Below, piece by piece: positions 4,625 through 21,206 of a stretch of 26,178 bases of DNA (the first letter of the stretch is position 1; each line of letters begins with the position of its first letter). Source of the stretch: a virus; IMG/VR virus record IMGVR_UViG_3300030101_003435, positions 1 through 26,178 of that record; one strand, given 5' to 3'. The notes beneath the pieces were generated by a model. The model did not search any database. It saw nothing but the letters and a program-made list of their open reading frames with translations, and had not been told where the DNA came from. The position numbers and the translations under genes are program-made.

Positions 4625-4842
4625 AAAAAGAGACCTTTATCTAAAACTTTCTCTAGCAACAGAAGTGATACTGCCCCAACAGTACCCAATAACACCCAAT
4701 AGATCTTGTCTATCTTACCACCCAAATCGTGTATACCATCGTGCATATGTTTAACATCTTTTTTTAATCCAGTAATATATCCATAGATAGAAAGTAAATG
4801 CTCTCTAGTTGTTTTCGGGTTTAGTTTATTTCCGTTTGGCAT
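4621..4842 (-). CDS. Small tail-anchored membrane protein, XhlA/holin-accessory-like (73 aa)
   Basis: The protein has a charged helical N-terminal part with heptad-like spacing (ITGLKKDVKHMHDGIHDLGG, about 23-42), one hydrophobic segment YWVLLGTVGAVSLLLL (about 48-63) and a short tail. This is the plan of XhlA-type hemolysin/holin-accessory proteins, but similarity at this length is weak. Its start overlaps the stop of the 1330-aa gene (TAATG, sharing base 4842), so it is probably translated by coupling. It is the last gene of the minus-strand virion block and its stop overlaps that of the convergent helicase gene. No endolysin is in the window, so a lysis role is only a suggestion. A virion membrane or ejection role is an alternative. 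Confidence 0.65.
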   Translation of the reverse strand: MPNGNKLNPKTTREHLLSIYGYITGLKKDVKHMHDGIHDLGGKIDKIYWVLLGTVGAVSLLLLEKVLDKGLFF

Positions 4843-7800: not shown

Positions 7801-8834
7801 GACTCTTCACTTACATTACTTTTTCTCATAAGGTCTAAAAGACTATCTAGTTTTTTAGGATCAACTCTATCTCTGATATTACCTTCAAATAAAACATCAT
7901 TAAGACCTTTTAAAAATTTTTCTTTTTCTACTTGTACTGATTTGTTAAACATTACTTCTGATTGAGGGTATATATTATCTACTTCTCTTGTAATGTTATC
8001 TACAATTTCTTTAGCTCTTAATGTATCTCTAGATTTTAATGCTTCTTTAAATGTTTCTTCTCCAAACAATTCTTTTGTCATACCACCTTGAGGAGTAAAA
8101 GGTGCTCTTACATATTTATCTAACCATCTCGCAAATCTAGAATTACTATAAGCAAGATCTTTACCTCTGTTAGCTAATAACTTAGCTGACTTACCTGCAC
8201 CGTACACAAATGGAGTAACCAATAAAGATTCAGAACCAAACTTTAATCTGTTTAATAATTTTCTTGTAGCATCTTCTCTACCAAAACTTTCTTCTCTATC
8301 TAATTTAGTAGGTCCTCCACCAAACATATCTCCAAATGTTCCAATGTTTTCTACATCAGCTACTAGTGTTTCACCCGCTGCACCACCAGCAATTGCTGCG
8401 GCATATCTAAACTTTTTAGATTTTTTATTTAAATCTCTAGCTTTGTTTATTGCTGACAAAACAGGAGCTCCTCTTAAATTAGCATAAGCGTTAGCTTTCT
8501 TTGCTCTAATTGCTTTTGCTGTAAGATTTCTAGCTACCTTGTTTGCTGCTTTGAATCCAATAGCACCTGGTATACCAACCTGTACTAATGTTTCTGTAAG
8601 TTTACCTATGGCTCTTTCTTCTGCTATCTCTTCAAATGGATTTAGTTTATCAAAAAATTCTTCTACACTTGCCGCTGTGTTTGTATCAGCTCCAAGATCA
8701 ATTAATTCTGCTGCAAGAGAGACTACACCTTCAGGTATCTTTAATAGACCTGATGCAATACCAGAGGCGGCAGCTGTGTACCACGCTGTATCATTGTTTT
8801 GTTCGGCGTTATTGAGAGGTAAAAACTCTGCCAT
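4842..8834 (-). CDS. Giant internal virion / DNA-ejection-type protein (1330 aa)
   Basis: This is the longest gene of the window. It is rich in Ala, Asn, Lys and Arg and mostly helical, with scattered amphipathic or weakly hydrophobic stretches near the N-terminus (SGIASGLLKIPEGVVSLAAE, about 24-43) and around residue 900. It ends with a Pro-rich linker (about 1264-1273) and a short acidic-to-basic tail. There is no signal peptide and no recognised lysozyme motif. Proteins of this size at the end of podovirus virion operons are usually inner-core proteins ejected with DNA (T7 gp16 analogues). I recall similar sequences in marine phages, but this assignment rests on size, composition and position. 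A GGAG box lies 5 nt before the ATG. It follows the 401-aa hendecad-repeat gene by 8 nt and is coupled to the 73-aa gene by TAATG. Confidence 0.75.
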   Translation of the reverse strand: MAEFLPLNNAEQNNDTAWYTAAASGIASGLLKIPEGVVSLAAELIDLGADTNTAASVEEFFDKLNPFEEIAEERAIGKLTETLVQVGIPGAIGFKAANKVARNLTAKAIRAKKANAYANLRGAPVLSAINKARDLNKKSKKFRYAAAIAGGAAGETLVADVENIGTFGDMFGGGPTKLDREESFGREDATRKLLNRLKFGSESLLVTPFVYGAGKSAKLLANRGKDLAYSNSRFARWLDKYVRAPFTPQGGMTKELFGEETFKEALKSRDTLRAKEIVDNITREVDNIYPQSEVMFNKSVQVEKEKFLKGLNDVLFEGNIRDRVDPKKLDSLLDLMRKSNVSEESRQLIVNGVNNARDEFTNLINILDNNTSGAKLNKGVKELQSLLKGRVNGWIGGTYRIFEDQGKGIFKFFKRYEPTDEVINNATNFFRREIAKENGDAAFDIASNAYQKEASIIVDDILREAALRGKPKGLKFNEYINKTMEGKPGADFIRAEIKETKLPPKELRELFGEVQDPRYSIFNGITNLSSVARTSEYLKRVALKNDEVQAAGGRGFFWNDENAFRLGVNQKNTGITSVKMDDVISKIPEAANIPNPLAGKITTPEIAEAIKNANNIAGGLQGFVRGEGKEGAEAAASWMYRNLLLFPKGVSQLAKTVFSIPTHIRNVISAFGFAGANGNLFNPVEFSRAFAEGIETTGLLKAGPPSEAAQAAYRELVELGVVNSQVQIGDLKALLQDIRFGQQAANVDTVLNPMMAKLKKVGQFFQGKYVAEDDTFKIASYVMEKAKLKSRYARRGIDVTESVLNREAANVVKNTVPNYAFVGSAVRTARLLPIGNFMSFPSEMIRTTTNIAELGLNEMRHIPAAGVRVKGSNLGLTVTEILQDGTEQVVKNNALDSGAYGDGIKRLLGLATFTTAAPIALTEGAKALYDISQDELDALRRFVPEWSKNSTLIPIRTEDGDLRYIDFSHSNAYDVIARPLRTVLNNIQDGQMNDQQILASFVNGVNEAGAEIMNPFISESIWTEAAGDLTVRGGVTKDGRRLYTDQTSAGDKAAIRFLHLGNALAPSYKQFVRLAQAATETPTARGETLDVGPEIAGFMGLRPIKVDPLKSMGFKISGYQRGIRNARREFTGGYFGLLKGGPVDPNDIILRYIKSNKAKFDVQQNMFNDLNAAETLGVGNNDLRRQFDERQISSEDYNNLRRGRFDPYVPSGEIAKKFRDIANNLGEDNPFREALPALNEIRRELRQLQLGQPFNIDPLEFLIPPAPPTPPLPTSVTSAMPNDKTITQAQNILSQTQMAAGNAGGLTALEEALLSDEEKLIRLRQRGITT

Positions 8835-8842
8835 TTAGACTC

Positions 8843-10048
8843 CTAGATTCCGTAACCAAAATCTTCAGGCTTGTTTTCTCTTATATCTTCTAAAATTCTT
8901 CTTTGATCATCACTTAAATAATCAAATCTTTCATCTATCTTAGCATCTTTTTCTGCCTTTGTACTACCTTTTGGTGCTTCTGGTTTTGTATAGGTGTCAA
9001 TATCAATTATTTGGAAACCATAAGTGCCATCAGTTTTTTTATTGTATATTTTAGCTTCACCAGTATTTACATCGTAGTAAACTTTACCAAGTTTTTTATT
9101 ATTTTTGTTTTTAATCAATGTAGATTCTTGAGGATCATTAGGGCCATTTAAGAAACCTTCAAAGTTAGATCCAAATTTTTCTATAAACTTAGTTTTTAAT
9201 TTATTGTTTTCAAACTTAGCTCTATTGTTAGCTTGTAAAGTATCACCTTCATAAACTTCTATAAAATCTTTTTCTGTATATCGTTTTTCTAATTCTCGTT
9301 CATCTGCAAGAATTTCTTTTTGGAAATCTTCTGCTCTTATAATTTTATCTAATTCAAAAGCTCTGCCTTCTTTAATTAATTTTTCTTCATATTTTCTTTG
9401 CTCTTCTTTTTCCATTTTGGCATATGCTCTAGCGTCCTCTAATATTTTAGCATCATAAGTTCGTTGATCTTCTTTTTCTAATTTATTATAAGCTCTTTGA
9501 TCTTGTATTAAATCTAAGTTAAATTTTCTTTCATCTTGAATTAATTCTTTGTTATAAATCCTGTCATCAGCTTTTACCCCTGCAAGATAATCTCTTTCGT
9601 CTTCTCTTAAAAAATCTTGATAAGATCTATCATCAGCTTTTAATGCTAGATCAAATGCTCTGTCGTCAAATTTTTGTTGATCAGCTAATGCAAGTTTAGT
9701 TCCAGCCATTCTTACATCTCTGTCAAACTTAGCTTTTGCGTCAGCACCTTTTATTAATTGCTGAGTAGCTGGTTTTAATTTTTCAATAGCATCAGCAAAA
9801 CTTGTAGCTCCTGCAACGCTTGGTCCAGCAGTTAATAAGAAACTTGTTAGAGGATCGTATCCACCATAATCACCAGCACCGGCTCTAATTTCTTCTATAA
9901 ATTGTTCTTGAGTTTTGGGAGTACCTATATCTAAATTTTCTAATCCTGTATATCCATCTTGAGCTTCTGTTCTATCTACAATACCAGTCATAATGCCAAC
10001 TCCGACATTACCACCTTTTCTAAACATAGGTCTTTTAAAAGTTCTCAT
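8843..10048 (-). CDS. Virion protein with a 12-copy hendecad coiled-coil repeat (401 aa)
   Basis: The N-terminus (RPMFRKGGNVGVGIMTG, about 6-22) carries an FRKGG motif that I recall from other marine phage virion proteins. Residues 128-259 are twelve consecutive 11-residue units without a single insertion, with consensus D-[DEQ]-R-x-[YF]-x-x-x-[LI]-x-x, for example DDRAFDLALKA, DERKFNLDLIQ and EQRKYEEKLIK. An 11-residue period points to a long, straight or slightly right-handed coiled coil, roughly 20 nm if continuous. A small beta-rich domain follows (KVYYDVNTGEAKIYNKKTDG, about 329-348). The gene lies between the Q-rich 275-aa gene and the giant 1330-aa gene, so an internal-core or ejection-conduit component is likely by position. 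The exact role is unknown. Confidence 0.75.
   Translation of the reverse strand: MRTFKRPMFRKGGNVGVGIMTGIVDRTEAQDGYTGLENLDIGTPKTQEQFIEEIRAGAGDYGGYDPLTSFLLTAGPSVAGATSFADAIEKLKPATQQLIKGADAKAKFDRDVRMAGTKLALADQQKFDDRAFDLALKADDRSYQDFLREDERDYLAGVKADDRIYNKELIQDERKFNLDLIQDQRAYNKLEKEDQRTYDAKILEDARAYAKMEKEEQRKYEEKLIKEGRAFELDKIIRAEDFQKEILADERELEKRYTEKDFIEVYEGDTLQANNRAKFENNKLKTKFIEKFGSNFEGFLNGPNDPQESTLIKNKNNKKLGKVYYDVNTGEAKIYNKKTDGTYGFQIIDIDTYTKPEAPKGSTKAEKDAKIDERFDYLSDDQRRILEDIRENKPEDFGYGI
9272..9667 (-). repeat. Twelve in-frame 33-nt (11-aa) repeats
   Basis: These encode residues 128-259 of the 401-aa protein. The register holds through all twelve units although nucleotide sequence has diverged strongly. 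The last two units (RAEDFQKEILA and DERELEKRYTE) are the most degenerate. Confidence 0.85.
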
Positions 10049-10049
10049 A

Positions 10050-10877
10050 TTAACTATTCAATACGCCTGGTTGATTAAATGCTCTGTATATACCAGCTAA
10101 TGTTCCACCAGCTCCTATTGCTGTCATTAAAGGACTAGGACTAGGTGAAGTAACTTGAGTTTGTTGACCTGGATATCCAGCGATTAAACCTGTAACACCT
10201 TGACCATAAGTCTGAGCCGCAGTTAATGGTTGCTGTAATTGTTGTTGAGCTAACTGTTGTTGTGCTTGTAATTGTGATTGTTGTAATGCTTGGTTCTGTG
10301 CACCAAGAGTTGTTAATGCTCCAACATCTTGACCTAAGAAAGCTTGTTGCTGACCAGCTAAATTTAATTGATTACTTAAAGCTCGTTGTGCAGCTTGTTG
10401 AGCTTGACCAAATCCTTGTTGTAATAATTGTGCTTGTAATGCTGCTCGATTCCTGTCGCTTGTTGTTTGATACTCTGATCTCATAACACCTTCACGTCCT
10501 CCACCAAGAACACCTTTACTTACAGCTTGAGCTGCAATACTTGGAATTCCTTTTTGTGCTTGTACATCAAATTCTCTTAACGTCTCACTAATAACATCTT
10601 GTTGGTAAGGAGACATAAATTGTTGATATGAAGTAGGACTAGCTAAAGCAGACGCAGATTGCAAGAAAGGTTTATATGCACCAATACCTTGAGTAGCTAA
10701 TTGTTGAGCTTGTGCTTGTAATGGATCCTGACCAGCTACAAATTGTGGACCAAATGCTTTTGATAGATCAGCTGTTTTATATCCCCCTGTAGCATCTGCA
10801 AGATTTGCTAAATAAGTTTTACCTGCTGCTTCTACAAATTCTGGTGGTAATACTCTTGTTGTTGTTACTTCAGCCAT
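10050..10877 (-). CDS. Gln/Ala-rich virion structural protein (275 aa)
   Basis: The N-terminal half has an ordered region with FMSPYQQDVISETLREF (about 87-103) and SKGVLGGGREGVMRSEY (about 119-135). Residues roughly 145-220 are dominated by Gln and Ala in a long amphipathic helix with runs such as QAQQQLAQQQLQQ. The C-terminus has a Pro/Ser stretch followed by a small hydrophobic segment (LMTAIGAGGTLAGIYRAF). I recall the GGGREGVM-type region from marine podophage virion proteins but know no assigned function. Gene order (318-275-401-1330) is that of an ejection or core set. Its start overlaps the stop of the 318-aa gene (TAATG at 10875-10879) and its stop ends 1 nt before the 401-aa start. 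Confidence 0.72.
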   Translation of the reverse strand: MAEVTTTRVLPPEFVEAAGKTYLANLADATGGYKTADLSKAFGPQFVAGQDPLQAQAQQLATQGIGAYKPFLQSASALASPTSYQQFMSPYQQDVISETLREFDVQAQKGIPSIAAQAVSKGVLGGGREGVMRSEYQTTSDRNRAALQAQLLQQGFGQAQQAAQRALSNQLNLAGQQQAFLGQDVGALTTLGAQNQALQQSQLQAQQQLAQQQLQQPLTAAQTYGQGVTGLIAGYPGQQTQVTSPSPSPLMTAIGAGGTLAGIYRAFNQPGVLNS

Positions 10878-11833
10878 TATACTACTCTCTTTTCTGCTTG
10901 TTTCATTTGATCATACAACCTTTGAGCACCTTTTTCAATGTTGCCGTCACCTATTCCTCTAACAGCATCTGCTGTCATTACAAATTCGTTTTTACTTAAC
11001 ATAGCAGGTACATCGTCTGCTTTTTCTTTTATACCAACTGGTACAAATCCACCAGTCTCTCTATAGTCTCGTTCTATAGTACCAGCTTTATTCATTCTCA
11101 TTTGACCCATAGGCATTCCTGGAATACCACCTAAAGCTACTTCATATCTTTTAGGAGGATTACCGGTATTAAATGTTCCTTTAGGTCCTAGAGGTTTATC
11201 AAATTCTACTCCATCTCTCTTATATATTTCTTTTCTTTTTTTAAAAGGCATTTGCATTATAAGTTTATCCATCTCTTCTTTTGATAAGGATCTTAATCCT
11301 TTTTTAGGTGTTCCAGATTCTAAACCAACTCTACCACCTATAGCACTGTTGATTCTTACAAACTCTTCTATCTCTGCACCTGATGCATCTGGATTTGTTT
11401 TGCTATAATAATCTTTTAAATACATTTTTAATTTTTCTGGATCGTTTTCAATCTCTGCTATTTCTTCTTGGTCCATGCCGCTAGAAGCAAGTGCGCTTAA
11501 AGCTGCACCAACGCCTACTTGACCTGCAGTGCTTCCCATAAATTTTTTAGCTAGATTAAAAATACCACCACTTCTTGCTACAGAATCCCCTGCTGTTTTA
11601 AATCCTAAAGGTGAACCCATTAATAAATTTTTAGCCCCCGTAAATCCAGGTATATTTTTAAAAGCAAAACCTCCAGGGCCAAAACCTCCTCCTAATGCAT
11701 AACCACCAAGACCTAGTAAAGCAGCTTTACCAACAGGTGACTTAACAACTTTTTTAATCGTCTTACCTATTTTTTTAACTAAACTTCCTAGTCCGTATAA
11801 TTGTCTGGGTTCTTGCATTCTTGATATTGCCAT
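10877..11833 (-). CDS. Virion-associated protein with KADDVPAML C-terminal domain (318 aa)
   Basis: The N-terminus is basic (LVKKIGKTIKKVVKSPVGK, about 18-36), followed by Gly-rich hydrophobic stretches (ALLGLGGYALGGGFGPGG, about 38-55) that could contact membrane. The middle is charged, with SAIGGRVGLESGT near 167. The C-terminal 60 residues (GFVPVGIKEKADDVPAML and EFVMTADAVRGIGDG) match a module I have seen repeatedly in marine phage structural proteins, with no known activity. No Shine-Dalgarno sequence precedes the ATG. Instead a 9-codon mini-ORF with AGGA upstream ends 3 nt before it, so coupled translation is plausible. A second in-frame ATG at codon 6 also lacks a clear ribosome site. 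Confidence 0.72.
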   Translation of the reverse strand: MAISRMQEPRQLYGLGSLVKKIGKTIKKVVKSPVGKAALLGLGGYALGGGFGPGGFAFKNIPGFTGAKNLLMGSPLGFKTAGDSVARSGGIFNLAKKFMGSTAGQVGVGAALSALASSGMDQEEIAEIENDPEKLKMYLKDYYSKTNPDASGAEIEEFVRINSAIGGRVGLESGTPKKGLRSLSKEEMDKLIMQMPFKKRKEIYKRDGVEFDKPLGPKGTFNTGNPPKRYEVALGGIPGMPMGQMRMNKAGTIERDYRETGGFVPVGIKEKADDVPAMLSKNEFVMTADAVRGIGDGNIEKGAQRLYDQMKQAEKRVV

Positions 11834-11889: not shown

Positions 11890-12849
11890 TTATTTGATTT
11901 TTGTATCTTCGTCAAGTGGTTTGGCATGCTTTGCAGGACGTGTACCTTGATATAAATCATCAAAGAAACGACCACGATATAAGAACTCTCCAACGTGCGT
12001 AATAGTATCCATTACATATATATGAACTTTACCACCCATATCTGTCCATTTTTGACAGAAACCAAAGTCTTCTCCAAAGTATCTTTTAGTTTTAAGATCG
12101 TGCCATGTGTCAAACAAATTATAAAAATTATCTTTTTTTTCTTCTTTACCATTAATATAGGTAGGTTGATATATCTCTAATTCAGGATGATTTTTAATCA
12201 TGTCTTCAATAACATGTCTTTTAATTAACATACATCCAGTAGGCGCATGAGTTACTTCTATAATACCTTTATCAGCTATAATGTTATATTGATCTTCTAC
12301 TTTAATTGGATAAGTAAAACCTGCTCTTGACATGTCTTCTGCAGAATTAATAGCGTCTTCTTTATTATTGACTCTTCTCCATACTTTATTCCAATCCATC
12401 ATCTTCATTGGATAAGGGCATGCAATAACATCTTTGTCAGCCTTTAACATTTTTTCAATAGTAGAAAAACTAAAGTCAATATCAGAGTCTATGAATAATA
12501 AATGCGTATACTTATCTTTATGATTTATAAACTCTGCTACACTTAAATTTCTACCTTGTGTAACTAATGACGATTTAAGTAATGTAAAACTACATAATAT
12601 ATTTCTTTGTAAACATTCTTGTTGAAATTTTAAGACAGCTTGACAATAATGCATAGATACATCACTATGACAAGGAGTACAGACCATTATTTTATAAGGA
12701 GATCTACCTCCTTCACCACCTACATTTATTTCAATCACATTACTATCACCTTCAACTTTATTAGTTTTTACAGTTTGATAAGTATCATTACTAGCTTCTG
12801 TTTTTTTATCTTCTTCAAACCAGATAGGTGTATTACTTAGTCTTGGCAC
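11890..12849 (-). CDS. GT-A-fold glycosyltransferase (family 2-like)
   Basis: The 319-aa protein has about 50 low-complexity N-terminal residues, then a nucleotide-sugar transferase core. This core contains MVCTPCHSD (55-63), a GRNLSVAEF segment (99-107), the metal-binding DSD motif in HLLFIDSDIDF (117-126), PTGCMLIK (203-210) and YFGEDFGFCQKW (257-268), followed by a conserved His in THVGEF. DxD plus a downstream ED and His is the usual GT-A set. The acceptor and donor are unknown. The start is GTG (12847-12849) with AGGAG 6 nt upstream, located inside the 3' end of the GT4 gene (17-nt overlap). Its place inside virion genes suggests modification of a virion or surface component, which is inference. 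Confidence 0.85.
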   Translation of the reverse strand: MPRLSNTPIWFEEDKKTEASNDTYQTVKTNKVEGDSNVIEINVGGEGGRSPYKIMVCTPCHSDVSMHYCQAVLKFQQECLQRNILCSFTLLKSSLVTQGRNLSVAEFINHKDKYTHLLFIDSDIDFSFSTIEKMLKADKDVIACPYPMKMMDWNKVWRRVNNKEDAINSAEDMSRAGFTYPIKVEDQYNIIADKGIIEVTHAPTGCMLIKRHVIEDMIKNHPELEIYQPTYINGKEEKKDNFYNLFDTWHDLKTKRYFGEDFGFCQKWTDMGGKVHIYVMDTITHVGEFLYRGRFFDDLYQGTRPAKHAKPLDEDTKIK

Positions 12850-13780
12850 TAATTGCTCCTGCTAGAAATCTTGTCCATGACGTGCCTATTTTATTCCAAT
12901 TGTAATAAGCATTAACGTAATCAGATTGAGTTTCTAAATGTTTATGTATAGTTTCTTCATGTAGTATATTTGCTGAAGCTTCTATTGCAGAAGCAAATTT
13001 CATTGATAACCTTCTTAAATTATTATCAAAAGGTATGTACATTGGAAACTCAGCACCTGTTTCAAACAAAGCACCAAGATTAGTTGTAACACAGTATAAT
13101 CCACCAGCCATACATTCTAATAAAGATATACAAGATGTTTCTTCAAAAATACTTGGATATGCATACATATTATATTTATGTACATTACTTTTTATAAAAC
13201 TATTTGGTTTATAACCTATGTAGTTTACATTAGGTAGTTGCCTTGCTTGTTCATATAGTTCTGTATATTCATGATCATTTTGATCAAAGAATTGTTTTCC
13301 ATATACCTCAGTTGATGAATACACATCTAAAGTAATCAATGGATTCTTAACTAATTGCATTGCACCTAATAAAACAGATAATCCTCTCCAAGGTGTGTTT
13401 TGATGAATTATTCTAATAGGATCACCTTGTTTATAAGGTTTTGCTTTTTGTATTTTATCTACACCGTTTTTAATTACCAAACATTTTTCTGCAGGTAAAC
13501 CAAACATCATTCTAAATTTTTCAAAAGTCCAATGAGAATTAAATACATACCAATCATACTTATGATGATTAGATTTTTCTTGAAACCAAGGAGCTAAGTT
13601 AGGCTGATCATATGAATTTTTTTGCCAAAGTATATTTACTTTGTTTGGATGTAACGGAATTTTTTCTGGCACAGAAGTTGTAATCTGTACTTGATCTAAT
13701 AATTTTTTATCAACATATTCTTCTAAATAGTTGAGTTGTAATTCTGTTCCGCCCTTAGGGTTTTGGTTTCTTATTATCAT
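12833..13780 (-). CDS. GT4-family (GT-B fold) glycosyltransferase
   Basis: The 315-aa protein starts near a Gly-Gly motif (NPKGGTELQ, 7-15). It contains WYVFNSHWTFEKF (77-89), VIKNGVD (102-108) and RIIHQNTPWRGLSVLL (123-138). The C-terminal donor-binding signature is YPSIFEETSCISLLECMAGG (208-227), with the E-x7-E pair E214/E222. This is the retaining GT4 arrangement. It is somewhat shorter than typical family members (about 350-400 aa), mainly in the N-terminal domain. It overlaps the 64-aa gene by 26 nt upstream and the GT-A gene by 17 nt downstream, so the two transferases are co-expressed. Sugar and acceptor are unknown. Confidence 0.87.
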   Translation of the reverse strand: MIIRNQNPKGGTELQLNYLEEYVDKKLLDQVQITTSVPEKIPLHPNKVNILWQKNSYDQPNLAPWFQEKSNHHKYDWYVFNSHWTFEKFRMMFGLPAEKCLVIKNGVDKIQKAKPYKQGDPIRIIHQNTPWRGLSVLLGAMQLVKNPLITLDVYSSTEVYGKQFFDQNDHEYTELYEQARQLPNVNYIGYKPNSFIKSNVHKYNMYAYPSIFEETSCISLLECMAGGLYCVTTNLGALFETGAEFPMYIPFDNNLRRLSMKFASAIEASANILHEETIHKHLETQSDYVNAYYNWNKIGTSWTRFLAGAISAKTK

Positions 13781-14438: not shown

Positions 14439-15277
14439 TAATATCTGCCTCTAAAACTATCTCTAGTTGAATCTGATTTAGTGTATCCTCCACCACCTAC
14501 ACCTTTTGATTTTGCTGCAGATGCTGTTGTAACTGAACCTCTATCTCGATCATCTATTTTAGATGTAGAGTCTCCTCTCATATCAACTTGTTTTTGAATA
14601 GCTCTAGCTTCTCTCATTGTTTTCGCTGATGCTCTATCTCTTGCGTCTCTACCACCATAACTTTTAGCATCAAAATAATCAGCTAAAGTTTTAGATTTAG
14701 CAAAATCTGTGTTACGTAGTCTTTGATTTAAACTTTTAATTCCGTCCAATGCACTTCTACCTTGATCTAAAAAGAAAGTAGAACCAGGTATTGCAAAACC
14801 TAATATAGTTTTAAACAAATCTGCTATACCACCAGATTTTTTTTGACCTGGTAAAAATTCTTGTTCTTCATCTTCTTCATTAGCTATACCTAAAGAACCT
14901 ACTCCTTTAAATCTATTTAAATCTAATCCTTGTAGTCTGTTCGCAGCAGCGAAAGGAAAAACGTCATCAGCAGTTCCAGGTGTACCAATTAAATTTGCAA
15001 TAGGGTCATCAGCAGTTCCAGGAGGCTGAAAAGGAAATACATCATCAGCAGTTCCAGGTGTACCAATTAAATACCCTGCATTAGATGTTTCAGGTACTCC
15101 TAAAAGATATCCCATATCTTGAGTTGCAGGTAGTCCAAGTAAATTTGCGGATGCATCATCTGGTGTGCCAGAAGAGGTAAATGGATTAGGTGGTAAGATA
15201 CCTGAGCCTTCATTACCAAAAGTAATTCTATCTTCTGTATCTATTAAATTTCCGTTTGCGTCAAAAACTATTGCCAT
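14438..15277 (-). CDS. Virion protein with GTPGTADD repeats (279 aa)
   Basis: Residues about 35-110 are low-complexity repeats built on GTPGTADDVFPF and LLG-P motifs. Two copies of NLIGTPGTADDVFPF-like text lie 26 residues apart, and a third partial copy lies between them. A hydrophobic region follows (IADLFKTILGFAIPGSTFFL, about 150-169), then a very basic, Arg/Ser/Asp-rich tail with GGGGYTKSDSTRDSFRGRY at the end. The basic, disordered C-terminus suggests nucleic-acid or protein contacts inside the virion. I do not recognise a family. It follows the 654-aa gene with a TAATG overlap and is coupled in the same way to the 54-aa gene. Confidence 0.65.
   Translation of the reverse strand: MAIVFDANGNLIDTEDRITFGNEGSGILPPNPFTSSGTPDDASANLLGLPATQDMGYLLGVPETSNAGYLIGTPGTADDVFPFQPPGTADDPIANLIGTPGTADDVFPFAAANRLQGLDLNRFKGVGSLGIANEEDEEQEFLPGQKKSGGIADLFKTILGFAIPGSTFFLDQGRSALDGIKSLNQRLRNTDFAKSKTLADYFDAKSYGGRDARDRASAKTMREARAIQKQVDMRGDSTSKIDDRDRGSVTTASAAKSKGVGGGGYTKSDSTRDSFRGRY
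14964..15072 (-). repeat. 31-nt exact direct repeat 78 nt apart within the 279-aa gene
   Basis: Bases 14964-14994 and 15042-15072 are identical. A 17-nt third copy of the first part sits at 15006-15022. The 78-nt offset is in frame (26 codons), so copy number can change without a frameshift. Confidence 0.85.
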
Positions 15278-17241
15278 TATCTTCTTCCGTCTGGTTGTGC
15301 GTCTAGTCTAAGTGTGCCATATCTCCATGACTCACCTACTGCTGTGTTGGCTATTTGTACAGAAACTAATCTGCCTCTAGCTCTTGTATCTACCTTATCA
15401 GTGGAAGATGTTATTGTAAAGGGTCCAAGAGGTGAGCTAACTGCTACATCATCTGGATAACTACTTACAAATAAAGTAACTTGAGCATTACCTGTTTGAT
15501 ATTTAAAATCAGGTATAAATCGTTTGACTGACATAAAAAATTCTCCATCACCTCTGTAATCAGCAATTCCTGTTGCCTGACCCAAGGCGCTTCGTCTAGA
15601 GGTAATGTCCCAATCTCCAGATCTAATAAAAGCGTCTATAGAAGTTGTGCCTGAGCTATTGACTTGATCAGTTCCTACTTCATGAGCATAGTAAATACTA
15701 GCTCCATATAAATTTGTAATACCTAATATATCTGGGAATACAGGTGTTCCGGTTTTACTATATTCTGTTGCATAAGGCTCATTAAATACTCCTTGGTCTT
15801 GATATGTAGTTCTAGCTAATGATGAAGTTGTCCAAACATTTTCTGAATAATTATAAGTCACACATCTATCAACTTGATCAGATCCATTTTTTGGATAAAA
15901 CCAATTTATTTCTGTGTATAAAGAATTAGGTGAAGAGTAGATAACATCTCTTGAATCTAAATTAATTCCTAAGTTATCTCCATCTGTACTAAATACAAAA
16001 TCTTCTACAAGTGATGGTAATGATTTAACTGTACCATCATAAGCAAAAAAACCACCTTCGGCTGACATCCACCATACAGCGCCATTTGCATAAGACATGG
16101 CGTGTTGACCAATACATCCACAGTTAGTACCCACTTGTCTAACAGAAAAAGTAAAAGGCGGACCAACAAATTGGATTACGTATGCAGCCGTATCAGTTGA
16201 TACAAAGATATAATCTTTACCTTGTATAGCTGCTCTAATCTCATTACCGGTATCTAACCTAAAAGTTCCCGCAGTGTTAGTTGCTGTTGGAGCATATGTG
16301 TTTAAATCCTCTTGATTAGAAAATCTTACAAACATAGGGTCTTGTGTAGTAGGATCACCAATAGTTGTTTCTGTTCCTAAATGAAATACATGTCTATCTC
16401 TATCTGATACGATAGATATTCTAGTAGCTGTTGGATTGTTTGTTGTTTGAAAATTACTTGTTGTTGTTGACGCTCTAATTGCTCTAGCTCCCGATGCTCC
16501 AGCATTCCATGTAAAAGTTTTACCATTAAATATTGTAGCAACCAATACTTCTCCAAAGTTATCAAGACTCCAGTTTCCTGGGTCAAGAATCACATCACTA
16601 GTTGCACTTTCAGTTCCCCATGTGCTAGATCCCCATAAATCCGTACCCCAACCATAACCTGCAGTTTGAAAAGTAGGACCTACTTCAACATAAGGATTAA
16701 CAGTTGCTGCACCCGCTGCAGTCATACCAGATCCTCCTTCAGCACGAGATGCTTGCACTGTAAATTTATCTACGTCAGGTACAGTTAATATTTCATAAAC
16801 TTTTTCTAATTCAGCTGCTGTAAAATCAGATGCACCTGTAACCGTTACACTAGATAAAGTTACGTATCTTCCTTTAGCTAAACCGTGAGATCCTTTATTT
16901 ATAGTTACAGTATTTGAACTATTAACAGTTGTTATAGTGCATCCTGTAATAGCTGTATCTAAGGGTGTAATATCAAAAAAATCATTGCCATAATATAAAA
17001 ATAAACCTTGTGATGTTCCTATAGCTGTATATTTTTCACCAGCGAAAGAAGTGAAAGCATGCTGTTTTCTAGCTGCACCTGGTAAAGTTAAAGACCCAGC
17101 TGTTAATTGACTCCAACCTCCTATTTTTTCAGGTAGTCCATATCTGAATCTAACAAAATCACCGTCTGTCCATTGCCCCTCGGCACCAGATTCTGTGTCT
17201 TGTTTATTGAAACCAGGCTTGAAATTTAATTTTTGTAGCAT
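15277..17241 (-). CDS. Tail hub / packaged-DNA stabilisation-type structural protein (654 aa)
   Basis: The opening (KPGFNKQDTESGAEGQW, 8-24, and DGDFVRFRYGLPEKIGGW, about 26-43) is a hallmark I know from many marine podophage genomes, where it is described as a phage stabilisation or tail tubular protein (P22 gp10 / T7 gp12 class). The rest is beta-rich, as expected for a beta-propeller-like tail component: repeated sheets, DRHVFHLG, WWMSAEGGFFAYDG. Residues about 100-182 look like an inserted beta-domain (SHGLAKGRYVTLS and AAELEKVYEI). No clear ribosome site precedes the ATG. The gene starts the minus-strand second virion block and is divergent from the oxygenase operon. The stop overlaps the 279-aa start (TAATG). 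Confidence 0.8.
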   Translation of the reverse strand: MLQKLNFKPGFNKQDTESGAEGQWTDGDFVRFRYGLPEKIGGWSQLTAGSLTLPGAARKQHAFTSFAGEKYTAIGTSQGLFLYYGNDFFDITPLDTAITGCTITTVNSSNTVTINKGSHGLAKGRYVTLSSVTVTGASDFTAAELEKVYEILTVPDVDKFTVQASRAEGGSGMTAAGAATVNPYVEVGPTFQTAGYGWGTDLWGSSTWGTESATSDVILDPGNWSLDNFGEVLVATIFNGKTFTWNAGASGARAIRASTTTSNFQTTNNPTATRISIVSDRDRHVFHLGTETTIGDPTTQDPMFVRFSNQEDLNTYAPTATNTAGTFRLDTGNEIRAAIQGKDYIFVSTDTAAYVIQFVGPPFTFSVRQVGTNCGCIGQHAMSYANGAVWWMSAEGGFFAYDGTVKSLPSLVEDFVFSTDGDNLGINLDSRDVIYSSPNSLYTEINWFYPKNGSDQVDRCVTYNYSENVWTTSSLARTTYQDQGVFNEPYATEYSKTGTPVFPDILGITNLYGASIYYAHEVGTDQVNSSGTTSIDAFIRSGDWDITSRRSALGQATGIADYRGDGEFFMSVKRFIPDFKYQTGNAQVTLFVSSYPDDVAVSSPLGPFTITSSTDKVDTRARGRLVSVQIANTAVGESWRYGTLRLDAQPDGRR

Positions 17242-17288: not shown

Positions 17289-17834
17289 ATGGACCATTTA
17301 GAAGCAATTGTTGAAATTAAAAACATAATTAACCCTGAATTTATTAAAAAAATAATACCCTTAATAAAATTAAAATCTAAAACTAATCTCAAAGTTAATT
17401 CAGGAATAAATAAAGACATTAGAAATGTAAAAGGATATTCATTAAATCTTGAAACTCCTACTAATATATTTTATTGGAATTATATAAAACAAGAGATAGA
17501 AAGATTGTATAGTTACTATAAAATAAAGTTTCCTCTCATGATGAGTTATAAAATAAATCAAATAGATTTATTAAAATATTCACCAGGTGGTAAATACGAA
17601 ATACATACCGATCATTACACAAACAGTCCTAGACATCTAAGTATTATTATGAATTTAAATAATGACTATGAGGGTGGTGATTTAATTTTTACAGATCAAA
17701 AAGAAAAAGAAGTGAAAAGATTAGAACTTAATAAAGGATCTATTGTGTTTTTTCCAAGTAATTTTCTATATCCACATAGTATTAAACCTATTACGAAAGG
17801 AACAAGGTATAGTATAGTTGCATGGCTGCAGTAG
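17289..17834 (+). CDS. 2OG-Fe(II) oxygenase no. 1, prolyl-4-hydroxylase-like (181 aa)
   Basis: The C-terminal half is a double-stranded beta-helix with the classic facial triad. The H-x-D is H106/D108 in KYSPGGKYEIHTDH, the distal His is H163 in FLYPHSIKPI, and the 2-oxoglutarate-binding Arg is R173 in GTRYSIVAWL. The segment YEGGDLIF (127-134) fits the P4H/PKHD group. Members hydroxylate peptide or small-molecule substrates using O2 and 2-oxoglutarate. The substrate here is unknown. The ribosome site is weak. It is the first gene of a four-gene plus-strand operon, and its last 13 nt overlap the next gene. A very AT-rich, Lys/Ile/Asn-heavy composition distinguishes it from the virion genes on both sides. 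Confidence 0.88.
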   Translation: MDHLEAIVEIKNIINPEFIKKIIPLIKLKSKTNLKVNSGINKDIRNVKGYSLNLETPTNIFYWNYIKQEIERLYSYYKIKFPLMMSYKINQIDLLKYSPGGKYEIHTDHYTNSPRHLSIIMNLNNDYEGGDLIFTDQKEKEVKRLELNKGSIVFFPSNFLYPHSIKPITKGTRYSIVAWLQ

Positions 17835-18343
17835 ATTATAAAGTAATAAAAAATTTTTTTAGTAAGGATGAATTAAAAGTTTATCAAAAATATTGTTATA
17901 ATGAGATAGATAAAAATCAAAACTGTAAGATTGATAATCAATCATTTTCTCCTGCTTGGTATAATGATCCTTTAATGAATGCCTTATTAAATACAAAATT
18001 ATCTATTGTTGAAAAAGAATCTAATTTAAAATTATTTCCTACATATGCTTATTGGAGATATTATGTATTTGGTGGAACATTAAAAAAACATTTAGACAGA
18101 CCAGCGTGTGAAATAAGTATAACTAGTTGTATAAAAAAATATGATAACTGGCCTTTAATTATAGAAGATAAATCTTTTGAATTAGAAGAAGGTGATGCAC
18201 TTTTATATGCAGGATGTGATCAAATACATGGAAGACCTGGAGTATATAAAGGAGAAGGTATGGCTCAAGTATTTTTACATTATGTAAATCAAAACGGACC
18301 TAATAAACAACATGCATATGATGCTATTGATAATTCAAGATAA
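17822..18343 (+). CDS. 2OG-Fe(II) oxygenase no. 2 (173 aa)
   Basis: A different subfamily from its upstream neighbour. The core is TYAYWRYYVFGGTLKKHLDRPACEISIT (74-101), with H-x-D at H90/D92 followed by an Arg. It continues with EEGDALLYAGCDQIHGRPG (about 122-140), with the distal His at H136, and AQVFLHYVNQNG (148-159). The WRYY...HxDRPACEIS and QVFLHY segments recall a small oxygenase group of marine phages and bacteria with no fixed substrate. The 2OG carboxylate ligand is not certain by eye: R138 lies two residues after the distal His, and the usual downstream Arg is replaced in AQVFLHY. It overlaps oxygenase 1 by 13 nt and joins oxygenase 3 by TAATG. Confidence 0.82.
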   Translation: MAAVDYKVIKNFFSKDELKVYQKYCYNEIDKNQNCKIDNQSFSPAWYNDPLMNALLNTKLSIVEKESNLKLFPTYAYWRYYVFGGTLKKHLDRPACEISITSCIKKYDNWPLIIEDKSFELEEGDALLYAGCDQIHGRPGVYKGEGMAQVFLHYVNQNGPNKQHAYDAIDNSR

Positions 18344-18936
18344 TGATAACTCTAATAGATAAAAACAATAAATTAAACGAAACTAGAAATAGTTTAAACA
18401 TTACTTATCCTAGACATGTAAATATAATATTTGGCCATTATTCTTATCCTGAAAAAATTCACAGCTTTATTTTAGATATAAAAAACAATTTAAATTCAGA
18501 AATGGATAATTACACTAATGTAAAGGGAGGGATGACTGATTGGAATTATTTTTTAGATAAACCTCAGTTTAATGAATTTATAACTTATGTAATAAATAAA
18601 CATCAAATAACTCATTCTAATTTATTTCAATATTTTTTAGAAAAAAACATTGTTATTAATGCTTGGGGTAATGAAATAAAATCTGGAGATAGTTTAAATT
18701 ATCATAGTCATCCTTGTTTTCATGGTATATTATATTTAACAAAAGGATGTGATTTAATATTACCTGAACTCAATTTAAAAATAACTCCGGAACCAGGAGA
18801 TTATTATATCTTTCCCCCTGAAATAGTACATGGTTTTGATACGTATGAGGGAGAAAAAAATAGATATAGTTTAGTATTTAACATAATACAAAATGATAAT
18901 ACATTTGGATTTCGCAAAAAAATAAAAAAACTATAA
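18343..18936 (+). CDS. 2OG-Fe(II) oxygenase no. 3, HxHP type (197 aa)
   Basis: The core reads NAWGNEIKSGDSLNYHSHPCFHGILYL (106-132), then EPGDYYIFPPEIVHGFD (150-166) and NRYSLVFNI (173-181). The first motif has H121-x-H123 where the standard triad has H-x-D/E. The distal His is H163, and R174 is placed to bind 2-oxoglutarate. The W-N...H-x-H-P...GD...FP...H...R-S-FN pattern matches the family I know as 2OG-FeII_Oxy_5, where H-x-H-P is normal. Substrates of that family are mostly unknown. The start shares one base with the preceding stop (TAATG). An N-terminal ~100 residues of unassigned helical sequence may set specificity. Confidence 0.8.
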   Translation: MITLIDKNNKLNETRNSLNITYPRHVNIIFGHYSYPEKIHSFILDIKNNLNSEMDNYTNVKGGMTDWNYFLDKPQFNEFITYVINKHQITHSNLFQYFLEKNIVINAWGNEIKSGDSLNYHSHPCFHGILYLTKGCDLILPELNLKITPEPGDYYIFPPEIVHGFDTYEGEKNRYSLVFNIIQNDNTFGFRKKIKKL

Positions 18937-18954
18937 TAGGAGGTATAAATTAAG

Positions 18955-19551
18955 ATGAAAGAAAGAACTGTAGATATCACTAACTTTATTGGTGTGTATG
19001 ATAACTATATTACTAAAGAAGAATGTAATAAGGCTATTAAATTATATGAAGATCAAAATAAATTTAACAATACAATTAATAGAATAGGTACAGAAGATTC
19101 TTCAATTTTACAAAAACAAGATAAACAATTTTTTGCAACTGAAGAAACTTTAGATTTTTGGTGGACACCATTAAAATCATTAATTTTTAATTTTGATGTA
19201 GCTTTTAAACACTATGAAAAAAATATAGGAGCTAAAGATACTTATAGTGTAGATAATTTTCACTATACACAGTTAAAAATTCAAAAAACTTTGCCTACTG
19301 AAGGATATCATGTTTGGCATATTGAACATGGAAAAGGTTGGGAACAAGAACCAAGAGCTTTTGTATATACCGTGTATTTAAATGATGTTGAAGAAGGTGG
19401 CGAAACAGAATTTTTACATTTTTCTAAAAGAGTAAAACCTAAAACAGGTAGAATTGTTATTTGGCCTGCAGGATTTCCTTATGTTCATAGAGGTAATCCA
19501 CCTTTATCAGGGGAAAAATATATTTTAACTTCTTGGATGTTGTTAAGATGA
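18955..19551 (+). CDS. 2OG-Fe(II) oxygenase no. 4, HxE type (198 aa)
   Basis: The core carries EGYHVWHIEHG (116-126) with H122-x-E124 as likely metal ligands, YLNDVEEGGETEF (141-153), RVKPKTGRIVIWPAGFPYVHRGN (159-181) with distal His H178, and GEKYILTSW (186-194), where K188 occupies the 2-oxoglutarate-binding position. The length and motifs are those of a compact phage prolyl-hydroxylase-like enzyme. It has the best ribosome site of the four (AGGAGGT about 11 nt upstream) after an 18-nt gap, so it may be made at a different level. Its last 9 nt overlap the convergent 124-aa tail gene. Substrate unknown. Confidence 0.85.
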   Translation: MKERTVDITNFIGVYDNYITKEECNKAIKLYEDQNKFNNTINRIGTEDSSILQKQDKQFFATEETLDFWWTPLKSLIFNFDVAFKHYEKNIGAKDTYSVDNFHYTQLKIQKTLPTEGYHVWHIEHGKGWEQEPRAFVYTVYLNDVEEGGETEFLHFSKRVKPKTGRIVIWPAGFPYVHRGNPPLSGEKYILTSWMLLR

Positions 19552-19917
19552 GTAAGATGTAGGTTTTTCACCTAATCTAGCAATTTTATCAGCTTCACTT
19601 TCACCATCAACGTTATCACCATCCCAATCAGATTGTAATTGTGTTAAGTGAGCTGTATCCCATTTAGTAATAAAATCTTGAAAATCACCTAAGTTAGCAT
19701 CTTCCCAGCTAGAGTGAGAAGTATCATCTTTGTATTCTACAGTATCACTTGGATTAGATGTTCCATATTGAATAGCCCAGATGTTTGAAAACTTACCTTG
19801 TGCCCAAAAAGAATCATCTGAGATAACATATCCAACACCTTCAGAAGCACCTTCAGCATGATTTTTAATTACTTTTTTGTCTTCAAATATTACTGTCCAT
19901 TGTGCGTTTGTTGCCAT
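19543..19917 (-). CDS. Small acidic tail-region protein (124 aa)
   Basis: An acidic, Trp/Ser/Asp-rich protein opening MATNAQWTVIFEDKKVI, then GYVISDDSFWAQ (about 29-40), IWAIQYGTSNPSDTVEY (about 46-62) and an acidic C-terminus (DWDGDNVDGESEADKIA). Proteins of this look follow the collar gene in several marine phages that I recall, but without an assigned role. TAGGAG lies 6 nt before the ATG. It is the last gene of the minus-strand tail block and its stop region overlaps oxygenase 4. A tail-fibre tip, chaperone or attachment protein are all possible. Confidence 0.68.
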   Translation of the reverse strand: MATNAQWTVIFEDKKVIKNHAEGASEGVGYVISDDSFWAQGKFSNIWAIQYGTSNPSDTVEYKDDTSHSSWEDANLGDFQDFITKWDTAHLTQLQSDWDGDNVDGESEADKIARLGEKPTSYSS

Positions 19918-19925
19918 AATTTCTC

Positions 19926-20501
19926 CTACGTCTTGATAATATAAATTACTGTTAAATAAGGTTGAATAACTGAAGTTGCATCTCCAGAAAAGTTTGCACT
20001 CATATTATGAGAGTGACCACCACCTGAACCAGCACTACCTGTATTACCAGGTCCTCCTCCAGCTAATTGAGGTGGATTTGATGCAGGGTTATTTTGTAGA
20101 CTACCAGGATTTCCTCTACCTTGAGGGTGAGAGTGAGATGCAAGTTGTGATGTTGATAAAGTTGCATTGGCTGTTGAACCTCCAACGTTCCCTGCTGAAG
20201 CTACTGTGTTTGCTCCACCAGTTGATGCTAAAGCTTTGTTATTTGATTTTCCGATTGCAACGTTGTCAGATAAATTAGGTACGTTAAAAGTAGATGCACC
20301 ATCTCCAGTTCCATAAGTTGTAGATATGATTGCAAATAATGCAGAGTAAGTTGATCTTGAAACTGCTTGACCATTACATTCTAAGAAACCTGTTGGCACT
20401 GATGAAGAAGACCACGGCACAATAGTCGCTGTAGGAATTCCTTCGATACCAGTAAGGTTTGCTCCTGAAAAATCGTATTTTGTTGCTTCGTAATTTGACA
20501 T
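19926..20501 (-). CDS. Phage tail collar-domain protein (191 aa)
   Basis: Residues about 22-85 match the tail collar fold: IVPWSSSSVPTGFLECNGQAV (27-47), STYSALFAIISTTYGTGDGASTFNVPNLSDN (50-80). A Gly/Asn/Ser-rich, low-complexity region follows, with SHSHPQG (122-128) and GGHSHN (161-166). The end is the typical QPYLTVIYIIKT. Collar-domain proteins form or cap receptor-binding fibres, and the two H-x-H motifs resemble the iron-binding H-x-H sites of T4 gp37 and related fibre tips. It is preceded 3 nt earlier by the stop of the 233-aa tail protein and has AAGGAG about 9 nt upstream. Likely part of the host-recognition apparatus. Confidence 0.85.
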   Translation of the reverse strand: MSNYEATKYDFSGANLTGIEGIPTATIVPWSSSSVPTGFLECNGQAVSRSTYSALFAIISTTYGTGDGASTFNVPNLSDNVAIGKSNNKALASTGGANTVASAGNVGGSTANATLSTSQLASHSHPQGRGNPGSLQNNPASNPPQLAGGGPGNTGSAGSGGGHSHNMSANFSGDATSVIQPYLTVIYIIKT

Positions 20502-20504
20502 ATT

Positions 20505-21206
20505 CTATTTCTCCTTGTACGTCCACCCTGTTGTAGCGTCTCCTGAAAATACTAAACAAAAACCAGCACCTTGAGTATTAACTACAAGATCTGAGGCTGC
20601 GTTAGCTATATTAGAAGAGTTTCTACCAACAGTCAATGCGTTAGTATTGAAATCATATCCTTGGTCGATAAAGGCAACTTCATCACCAGCAGATGGCGAC
20701 GCTGGTAGCGTTACTGTAACTGCTCCACCATTTGTATTTACTAAAAGTTGAGCGCCAGCTTGAACTGTTTCAGCTGCAGAGATTGCTCTCCATTTTTTAA
20801 GTTCACCTGCTTTTACAATATTAGTTCCATCTGAATATAAAGTGTAACTGTGACCTTCACATAAAAGAACACCTGTGCCTGATGCAGTTTTAAAAGTTAA
20901 AGTGTTTCCAGCATGATTACAGCCATCTTCAACGATGTATGTTTTTTCAACTGAATTTGGAACACTAACTGTTAAATTAGAAGCTAGTGTACCTGTTAAT
21001 TTTATAACTTCATTTTTACCATCTGATAAAGCACCATTAGTAAAAGTTAAAGATCTAGCAGCATTAGTAATATTAAAAGTAGTAAAACCACCAATAGCTT
21101 GTTCTAGAATTAAAAGGTTAGTATTTGTAATTTGTCCCCAAGTTCCTGAATTTTCTCCAGTTGCTTGTACTGTAAGTTTTAAATTTGCTGATGTTGAATT
21201 CGCCAT
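20505..21206 (-). CDS. Tail fibre / tail structural protein (233 aa)
   Basis: The start LKLTVQATGENSGTWGQITN (9-28) is a signature I know from marine phage tail-fibre proteins. The remainder is beta-rich and Thr/Ala/Asn-rich with two similar halves: a LEQAIGG-ITNAARSLTF...LTGTLASNLTVSVP part, and a later TVQAGAQLLVNTNGGAVTVTLPASPSAGD part. Both resemble trimeric beta-structured fibre segments. AGGA is about 8 nt before ATG. A near-consensus promoter lies in the 55-nt gap upstream. It is followed after 3 nt by the collar gene, so the pair probably assemble together. Confidence 0.8.
   Translation of the reverse strand: MANSTSANLKLTVQATGENSGTWGQITNTNLLILEQAIGGFTTFNITNAARSLTFTNGALSDGKNEVIKLTGTLASNLTVSVPNSVEKTYIVEDGCNHAGNTLTFKTASGTGVLLCEGHSYTLYSDGTNIVKAGELKKWRAISAAETVQAGAQLLVNTNGGAVTVTLPASPSAGDEVAFIDQGYDFNTNALTVGRNSSNIANAASDLVVNTQGAGFCLVFSGDATTGWTYKEK

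Follow-up and report, generated by a model that had tools for sequence, protein, structure and literature searches.

Introduction

The 2-oxoglutarate (2OG)-Fe(II) oxygenase and 'ferrochelatase' genes of HTVC023P-type phages have been described as auxiliary metabolic genes (PMC9599517; PMC11561400). As far as the excerpted text of these papers goes, they concern the same phage group and the same PHROGs as the locus analyzed here, again with co-located oxygenases: eight non-orthologous 2OG oxygenases are found together with 'ferrochelatases' and are read as partner metabolic genes (PMC9599517), and phrog_61 and phrog_2954 are enriched in seasonal viruses, for which a metabolic influence was suggested (PMC11561400). 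In the corresponding portions of two further papers, 2OG/nitrogen control and DNA repair are discussed for cyanophages (PMC3037559) and gp73 is linked to iron demand (PMC12753301). Those portions of the four papers draw no link from these genes to a fibre protein. In this work we analyzed the locus at positions 17289-19551 of the IMG/VR virus record IMGVR_UViG_3300030101_003435, a stretch of 26,178 nt (hereafter the window), where four oxygenase genes, ox1 to ox4, face a tail-collar (short fibre) gene. Across relatives, the gene content of this island predicts the residues of a hypervariable loop in the collar protein, and those of no other neighbouring protein tested. We consider it probable that the enzymes encoded here form a swappable kit for protein modification, each member being residue-specific and directed at the tip of the phage's own tail-collar protein.

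The excerpts of PMC9599517 differ from this picture in giving the genes a metabolic reading, in assuming a true ferrochelatase, and in containing neither a locus-wide combinatorial survey nor a link to the collar tip. Prolyl 4-hydroxylases with protein substrates (vCPH of PBCV-1, 5c5t/5c5u; the B. anthracis enzyme, 5hv0; the P. putida enzyme with EF-Tu, 4iw3) share the double-stranded beta-helix (DSBH) fold and the metal motif and rank as the closest structures, or nearly so, to ox2, ox3, and ox4, but they are single enzymes and not an exchangeable set beside a fibre gene. Runs of 2OG oxygenase and 'ferrochelatase' genes near fibre or adhesin genes also occur in T4-like cyanophages and pelagimyophages (S-PM2, S-SM1, and HTVC008M; host recognition cluster of PMC7029224), where the published readings, in the portions consulted, are metabolic or DNA repair (PMC3037559). 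In S-PM2 and S-SM1, related oxygenases are located downstream of short tail fibre or fibre genes. HTVC008M (L233, KC465899) is a SAR11 myophage of another group with a layout similar to that of the window island: at 3751-11733, five head-on oxygenase-type genes face a 297-amino-acid (aa) glycine-rich adhesin-like protein (PF21722) and an Mtd_N/S74 tail fibre. By analogy, an oxygenase set facing a fibre gene may be a general arrangement. The likeness is one of gene layout, and a search for GHxH tip motifs in the examined stretches of HTVC008M and the cyanophage neighbours gave no collar-type tip.

Phages also diversify their tropism by mutable receptor-binding tips, as with diversity-generating retroelements acting on Mtd, gp38-type adhesins, and fibre invertases. 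These systems, like the collar, hold a hypervariable receptor-binding loop in a conserved frame; the collar system differs from them in that its diversification would be chemical as well as genetic. The gene families of the window locus are already known. Within the open-licence literature searched (subscription papers and preprints lay outside the search), we found no description of an exchangeable set of such enzymes coupled to a fibre tip, of hydroxylation of phage fibre or receptor-binding proteins, or of their combinatorial modification.

Results

Island gene content predicts the residues of the collar loop

Islands were collected from IMG/VR contigs by anchoring on flanking and island genes. 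After removal of near-duplicates the sample consisted of 213 distinct islands bounded on both sides; the contigs are fragments and the sample is centred on close relatives of the window. Loop analyses were performed on 173 islands, as 40 of the 213 do not have a single readable loop. An alignment of ∼120 collars indicated that, outside a loop of ∼30 residues between ...SHSH and GSGxGHSHNMSA, the collar sequence is conserved. This loop is hypervariable, rich in Gly, Asn, Ser, Thr, Ala, and Pro, and of the same length with or without the enzymes.

Two enzyme-residue couplings were first seen in a discovery set of islands and then tested on islands fetched afterwards. When ox3 is present, 35 of 75 loops have Gln as their tip residue (X of GSGXGHSH), compared with 1 of 98 loops from islands that lack ox3 (p = 1.5e-14). 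The discovery set gave 21/52 vs 1/49 and the new islands 14/23 vs 0/49 (p = 2.7e-9). The enrichment of Gln is strongest as Gly-Gln, the GQ dipeptide being detected in 50/75 loops with ox3 and 9/98 without. The second coupling connects ox2 with Pro: loops contain 3.76 Pro on average with ox2 and 2.27 without (p = 4e-9), and in the new islands 3.53 and 2.61, respectively (p = 0.006). Because the eight islands with ox1 alone have a mean of only 1.5 Pro per loop, Pro is tied to ox2 and not to ox1. The window's own loop, PQGRGNPGSLQNNPASNPPQLAGGGPGNTGSAGSGG, carries six Pro and three Gln, and its tip residue is Gly instead of Gln; therefore ox3 in this phage would act on another Gln or be idle.

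Controls for linkage, phylogeny, and sampling

In a column scan of eight neighbouring proteins (∼4200 residue-column tests), the best result for ox3 was the collar tip (2e-13) and the next best anywhere was 2e-4. The small protein gp71 is encoded between the island and the collar gene, and its best values were only 2e-4 for ox3 and 3e-3 for ox2; since it has nothing comparable to the collar signal in spite of this position, linkage does not explain the coupling. The presence of ox2 and ox3 carried no phylogenetic signal on the structural flank (nearest-neighbour concordance 0.53 and 0.50, respectively, vs 0.51 expected). Among pairs ≤10% divergent in the structural flank protein, the discordant pairs were distributed 17:0 for Gln and 31:5 for Pro. 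Based on the concordance and the matched pairs, phylogenetic confounding of the ox2 and ox3 couplings was rejected. When the loops were restricted to those <50% identical (145) and the labels were permuted family-wise, neither ox3-Gln nor ox2-Pro was reached in 300 permutations. The structural-gene-anchored sample alone gave 4/12 vs 0/27 for ox3 and tip Gln (p = 0.006) and only a trend for ox2 and Pro (p = 0.10). After exclusion of collar-selected loci, tip Gln was present in 24/62 loops with ox3 vs 1/80 without, and the ox2-Pro coupling had p = 2e-8.

Organization of the window locus

The window derives from an HTVC023P/HTVC027P-type pelagiphage, and the gene order around the locus is common to the cultured Pelagibacter phage HTVC027P. 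Phages of this group infect SAR11 bacteria and are abundant in the ocean. An earlier note on this DNA had described four consecutive plus-strand genes that overlap or nearly touch and are opposite in strand to both flanks. The open reading frames (ORFs) are located exactly there, with overlaps of 13 nt (ox1/ox2) and 1 nt (ox2/ox3) and an 18-nt gap before ox4. The features of the locus and its flanks, including those predicted by AlphaFold2 (AF2) modelling, are listed below.

15277..17241, minus strand: virion structural protein, low-side flank, divergent from the island (phrog_3287, 9.7e-76); used as anchor and control
17289..17834, plus strand: ox1, predicted 2OG-Fe(II) oxygenase, HxD...H...R (PF13640, 8.6e-18; phrog_61)
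17822..18343, plus strand: ox2, predicted 2OG-Fe(II) oxygenase with prolyl-hydroxylase fold (phrog_2954, labelled 'ferrochelatase'; AF2 model)
18343..18936, plus strand: ox3, predicted 2OG-Fe(II) oxygenase, PF13759-like, HxH...H...R (PF13759, 1.1e-6; phrog_81; AF2 model)
18938..18943, plus strand: AGGAGG, putative ribosome-binding site of ox4, read from the sequence
18955..19551, plus strand: ox4, predicted prolyl-4-hydroxylase-like 2OG-Fe(II) oxygenase, WHxEH variant of the metal motif (PF13640, 4.9e-11)
19543..19917, minus strand: gp71-like small protein, convergent with the island, orthologue of HTVC027P gp71; linkage control
19926..20501, minus strand: tail-collar (short fibre) protein, candidate substrate (PF07484 Collar, E 4e-21; HTVC027P putative tail collar protein gp70)
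20019..20126, minus strand: collar hypervariable loop, residues 126-161, between SHSH and GHSHNMSA (alignment of ∼120 collars)
20019-20021, minus strand: collar tip residue X of GSGXGHSH, residue 161, Gly in the window
20505..21206, minus strand: tail-fibre-like protein, located past the collar gene; served as a control in the column scan

We concluded that the ox ORFs are real and not due to chance, because HTVC027P has orthologues in the same place (74% aa identity for ox3 and 78% for ox4), the dN/dS values of ox1-ox3 (0.14-0.36) indicate purifying selection, and homologues recur across hundreds of contigs. The HTVC027P locus consists of three genes: ox3, ox4, and a third gene, gp72. The collar of this phage, whose host is HTCC1062, ends its loop with a tip Gln (...GSGQGHSHN). 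Some other details of the earlier note did not hold. The one promoter candidate that it proposed cannot be told from background, as sigma-70 promoter and terminator scans of the sequence were at or below chance (15 promoter-like matches vs 23 ± 5 in shuffled sequence). The low-side flank, called a tail stabilisation gene, matches PHROG 3287, 'virion structural protein'. As for the two glycosyltransferases mentioned, one has a match (12833-13780, phrog_2170) and the second is without a supporting match.

Predicted fold and identity of ox1-ox4

Pfam searches returned PF13640 for ox1 and ox4 and PF13759 for ox3, all above the cut-off, and zero matches for ox2. The metal motif H-x-D/E...H, which together with a basic 2OG-binding residue marks the superfamily, is conserved in the ox1, ox2, and ox4 families, and the ox3 pattern is HxH...H...R. 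The ox1 family has the conserved motifs HtD and H..I.PItKGtRY; in ox2, H90-x-D92 and H136 are invariant over 46 homologues. The AF2 model of ox2 has a DSBH fold at moderate confidence (mean pLDDT, the predicted local distance difference test, of 71). PBCV-1 vCPH occupied ranks 1-2 in Foldseek (1.6e-5), together with many PHD2 matches, and VIA gave Z scores of 12-14 to 2OG oxygenases (Z 13.9, root mean square deviation (rmsd) 3.3, 157 aligned). VIA also ranked an epimerase equally with the oxygenases, and therefore the fold alone cannot fix the function of ox2. The ox3 model (pLDDT 88) matched vCPH with Z 16.2 (rmsd 2.4, 147 aligned), and the ox4 sequence matched prolyl 4-hydroxylases in the PDB (5hv0/3itq/5c5t, E 1.6e-6). 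PDB sequence searches with ox2, ox3, and sulfotransferase profiles gave no useful match; ferrochelatase was unlisted, which proves nothing.

Judged by motifs, Pfam matches (ox1, ox3, ox4), and models (ox2, ox3), ox1-ox4 are all DSBH 2OG-Fe(II) oxygenases, for which turnover dependent on 2OG and O2 is predicted, in agreement with the earlier note, which also regarded the four as too different for recent duplicates; BLASTP detectably relates only ox1 and ox4 (25% identity). Pfam or modelling supports a DSBH fold for each of the four, and the families occur at a single common locus. A ferrochelatase identity for ox2, with a chelatase alpha/beta fold and an iron partner role, was ruled out by the DSBH beta-fold of the model and the HxD...H motif. 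By modelled fold, the 'ferrochelatase' label of phrog_2954 is wrong.

Annotation labels are a wider matter in these families. The PHROGs phrog_2954, phrog_3531, phrog_274, and phrog_2297 match these 2OG oxygenases and carry the labels 'ferrochelatase', 'DNA endonuclease V', and 'DNA endonuclease'; the ferrochelatase label has spread into viral ecology papers.

Variable gene content around a constant ox4

The locus is a combinatorial island with a single constant member. The gene ox4 was found in 213/213 islands, ox1 in 116/213, ox2 in 107/213, and ox3 in 96/213, and the 213 islands comprise 117 gene sets and, with gene order considered, 143 different contents. Most occurrences of ox1 and ox2 coincide, and among islands with a readable loop there is no ox2 without ox1. 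An island contains 3.7 oxygenases on average (range 1-9). Nearly all island genes (894/910, 98%) have one orientation, facing the tail-collar gene and running head-on towards the structural genes. About 20 further families recur, most of them with the oxygenase metal motif; the non-oxygenase members are a carbamoyltransferase (PF02543), a tryptophan-halogenase-like protein (PF04820, 2.5e-90), methyltransferases, and sulfotransferases (PF03567). Between locus L020 and the window, identity is 0.99-1.00 in the cassette and 0.82-0.93 in most of the structural gene next to it, and therefore the cassette moves by recombination.

A multistep or multi-target pathway had been suggested for the four genes. 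The multistep part, a fixed four-step pathway or operon, was rejected in view of the 117 distinct gene sets. The multi-target part is retained, as the variable content fits independent residue-specific targets better than one pathway.

Other enzyme families and loop residues

For two other families, the expected residues (Tyr for sulfotransferases and Lys for oxygenase family 20) were set before the results of the last two scans. Tyr was present in 13/13 distinct loops of sulfotransferase-family islands (11/11 at first and 2 new; ∼47% expected), and Lys in 8/8 distinct loops of family 20 islands (4 of them new; ∼34% expected). Halogenase islands have Trp in 2/3 distinct loops (L419 and L478) vs ∼9% of loops, a pairing that is only a hint given so few loops. 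By max-statistic permutation, coupling was not significant for families 4, 5, 6, 8, 10, 11, and 13. Families 7, 9, 17, 19, 20, and 23 were significant with redundant loops; in the non-redundant test, families 7, 9, 19, and 23 were no longer significant, and the loops of families 17 and 20 were too few.

Two observations on these families may be added. The collar loops of four islands with the PF04820 halogenase (L090, L092, L094, and L111) are near-identical, EVQGQ..G.Q.HA.L..YGGG. Families 13 and 14, a methyltransferase and a ParB-like protein, occur in 17/213 islands and are lineage-bound, unlike ox2 and ox3.

Proposed mechanism and alternative explanations

Among the hypotheses offered in the earlier note, hydroxylation of fibre proteins is the one favoured by the evidence, with the target now narrowed to the collar tip loop, which the note had not identified; DNA, lipid, and metabolite hydroxylation gained no support. 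In the mechanism that we propose, ox2, probably with ox1 as its partner, would hydroxylate Pro in the loop between the SHSH and GHSH motifs, and ox3 would hydroxylate Gln, above all in the Gly-Gln of the tip GSGQGHSH. The prolyl-4-hydroxylase-like ox4, as the constant member, would act on a constant site, and the other members would be gained and lost by recombination. In sister phages, sulfotransferases may sulfate Tyr, another oxygenase may act on Lys, and halogenation perhaps takes place, and carbamoyl- and methyltransferases may cap the hydroxyls. The outcome would be a surface with non-standard side chains in contact with a receptor, presumably that of SAR11, and diversified by loop mutation as well as enzyme exchange. 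Because the loop is hypervariable and sits in the collar/short-fibre protein, we infer that the modification tunes receptor contact. The predicted chemistry fits the residues, since the ox2 model matches prolyl hydroxylases, the sulfotransferase goes with Tyr, and family 20 goes with Lys.

With somewhat less assurance, we lean towards a combinatorial post-translational code made of ∼20 oxygenase families together with sulfo-, carbamoyl-, and methyltransferases and halogenases, each with a residue preference, such that tropism would evolve by enzyme swap and tip mutation. If the coupling is that of enzyme and substrate, these genes are tropism genes, and receptor-binding chemistry is diversified by a swappable enzyme set. 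Enzymes that oxidize Gln and Pro in peptides could then be matched with their natural substrates by reading the sequences of these loci, and the role of 2OG oxygenases in marine phages would be testable by mass spectrometry on a cultured isolate.

Several points weigh against enzymes acting on the collar tip. The whole case rests on sequence covariation and predicted folds. Tip Gln is lacking in 40/75 ox3 islands, the window included, and 73/75 hold some Gln in the loop. As ox4 never varies, its target is beyond the reach of covariation. The frequent families 4, 5, and 6 have no significant coupling, and the methyltransferase/ParB-like pair (families 13/14) is lineage-confounded, as its columns also associate in the structural flank. 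The counts for sulfotransferase-Tyr and family 20-Lys are small, and the sulfotransferase assignment itself is weak for the commoner sulfotransferase family: in family 12 of the sister phages, PF03567 is found in 15/16 members with a best value of 5.4e-5, and the first member scores below the curated cut-off. Finally, the coupling could arise indirectly via shared host adaptation.

In this last alternative, the enzyme set and the loop would both follow the strain of the host or the type of its receptor. The enzymes themselves would have other targets, such as the receptor or glycans of the host surface, and would serve to control adsorption or to exclude superinfection. Pelagiphages are known to have hypervariable islands for host recognition, with glycosyltransferases presumed to modify the surface of the host (PMC7029224; PMC10504331). 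But the coupling is specific to residue and site, and not to a type of loop. The loops of ox3 islands otherwise have little in common, and the association holds below 50% identity and in pairs matched on the structural flank. The residues also agree with the chemistry, Pro with a prolyl-hydroxylase-like fold and Tyr with sulfotransferase. We regard shared host adaptation as unlikely. Co-transfer of island and collar as one block, or biased sampling, is far less probable still. Recombination clearly moves the island, as the L020 identities indicate, but gp71 lies between island and collar without comparable coupling to ox2 or ox3, the ox3 result holds in both restricted samples, and ox2-Pro holds without the collar-selected loci, being a trend only in the structural-gene-anchored sample.

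An action on host iron, heme, 2-oxoglutarate, or nitrogen metabolism is the published reading of such oxygenases and 'ferrochelatases', as far as the consulted portions extend (PMC9599517; PMC11561400; PMC3037559; PMC12753301). Metabolic genes are not expected to predict the residues at one site of a tail protein, or to be exchanged among ∼20 families within a single locus, and the 'ferrochelatase' is a DSBH oxygenase by predicted fold and metal motif; we therefore disfavour this explanation strongly. The least probable of the alternatives is DNA or RNA base modification of the TET/JBP or AlkB type, in which hydroxymethyl bases might also be carbamoylated. Hypermodification of phage DNA does involve 2OG oxygenases and carbamoyltransferases, and one island protein has a weak, sub-threshold Tet_JBP score. 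In the excerpted text of PMC9599517, thymidine-hypermodification genes are reported elsewhere in some HTVC023P-type clades. On the other side, ox4 and ox2 are closest to protein hydroxylases, and the island sits among tail genes and covaries with collar residues.

Additional observations on the islands

The carbamoyltransferase is often split in two ORFs, an N-part of ∼307 aa and a C-part of 177 aa (L041, L097, L108, L116, L117, L153, and L225), and is a single ORF in L187, L162, and L100. Genes immediately following ox4 (18955-19551 in the window) appear to start at an ATGA that overlaps the ox4 stop codon in islands that have such genes. As a result, ORFs of several unrelated families in this position are translated with a common leader, for example LDDVKM, which comes from the end of ox4. 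In some islands (L019, L029, L061, L064, L174, and L181), two or three collar genes follow in tandem.

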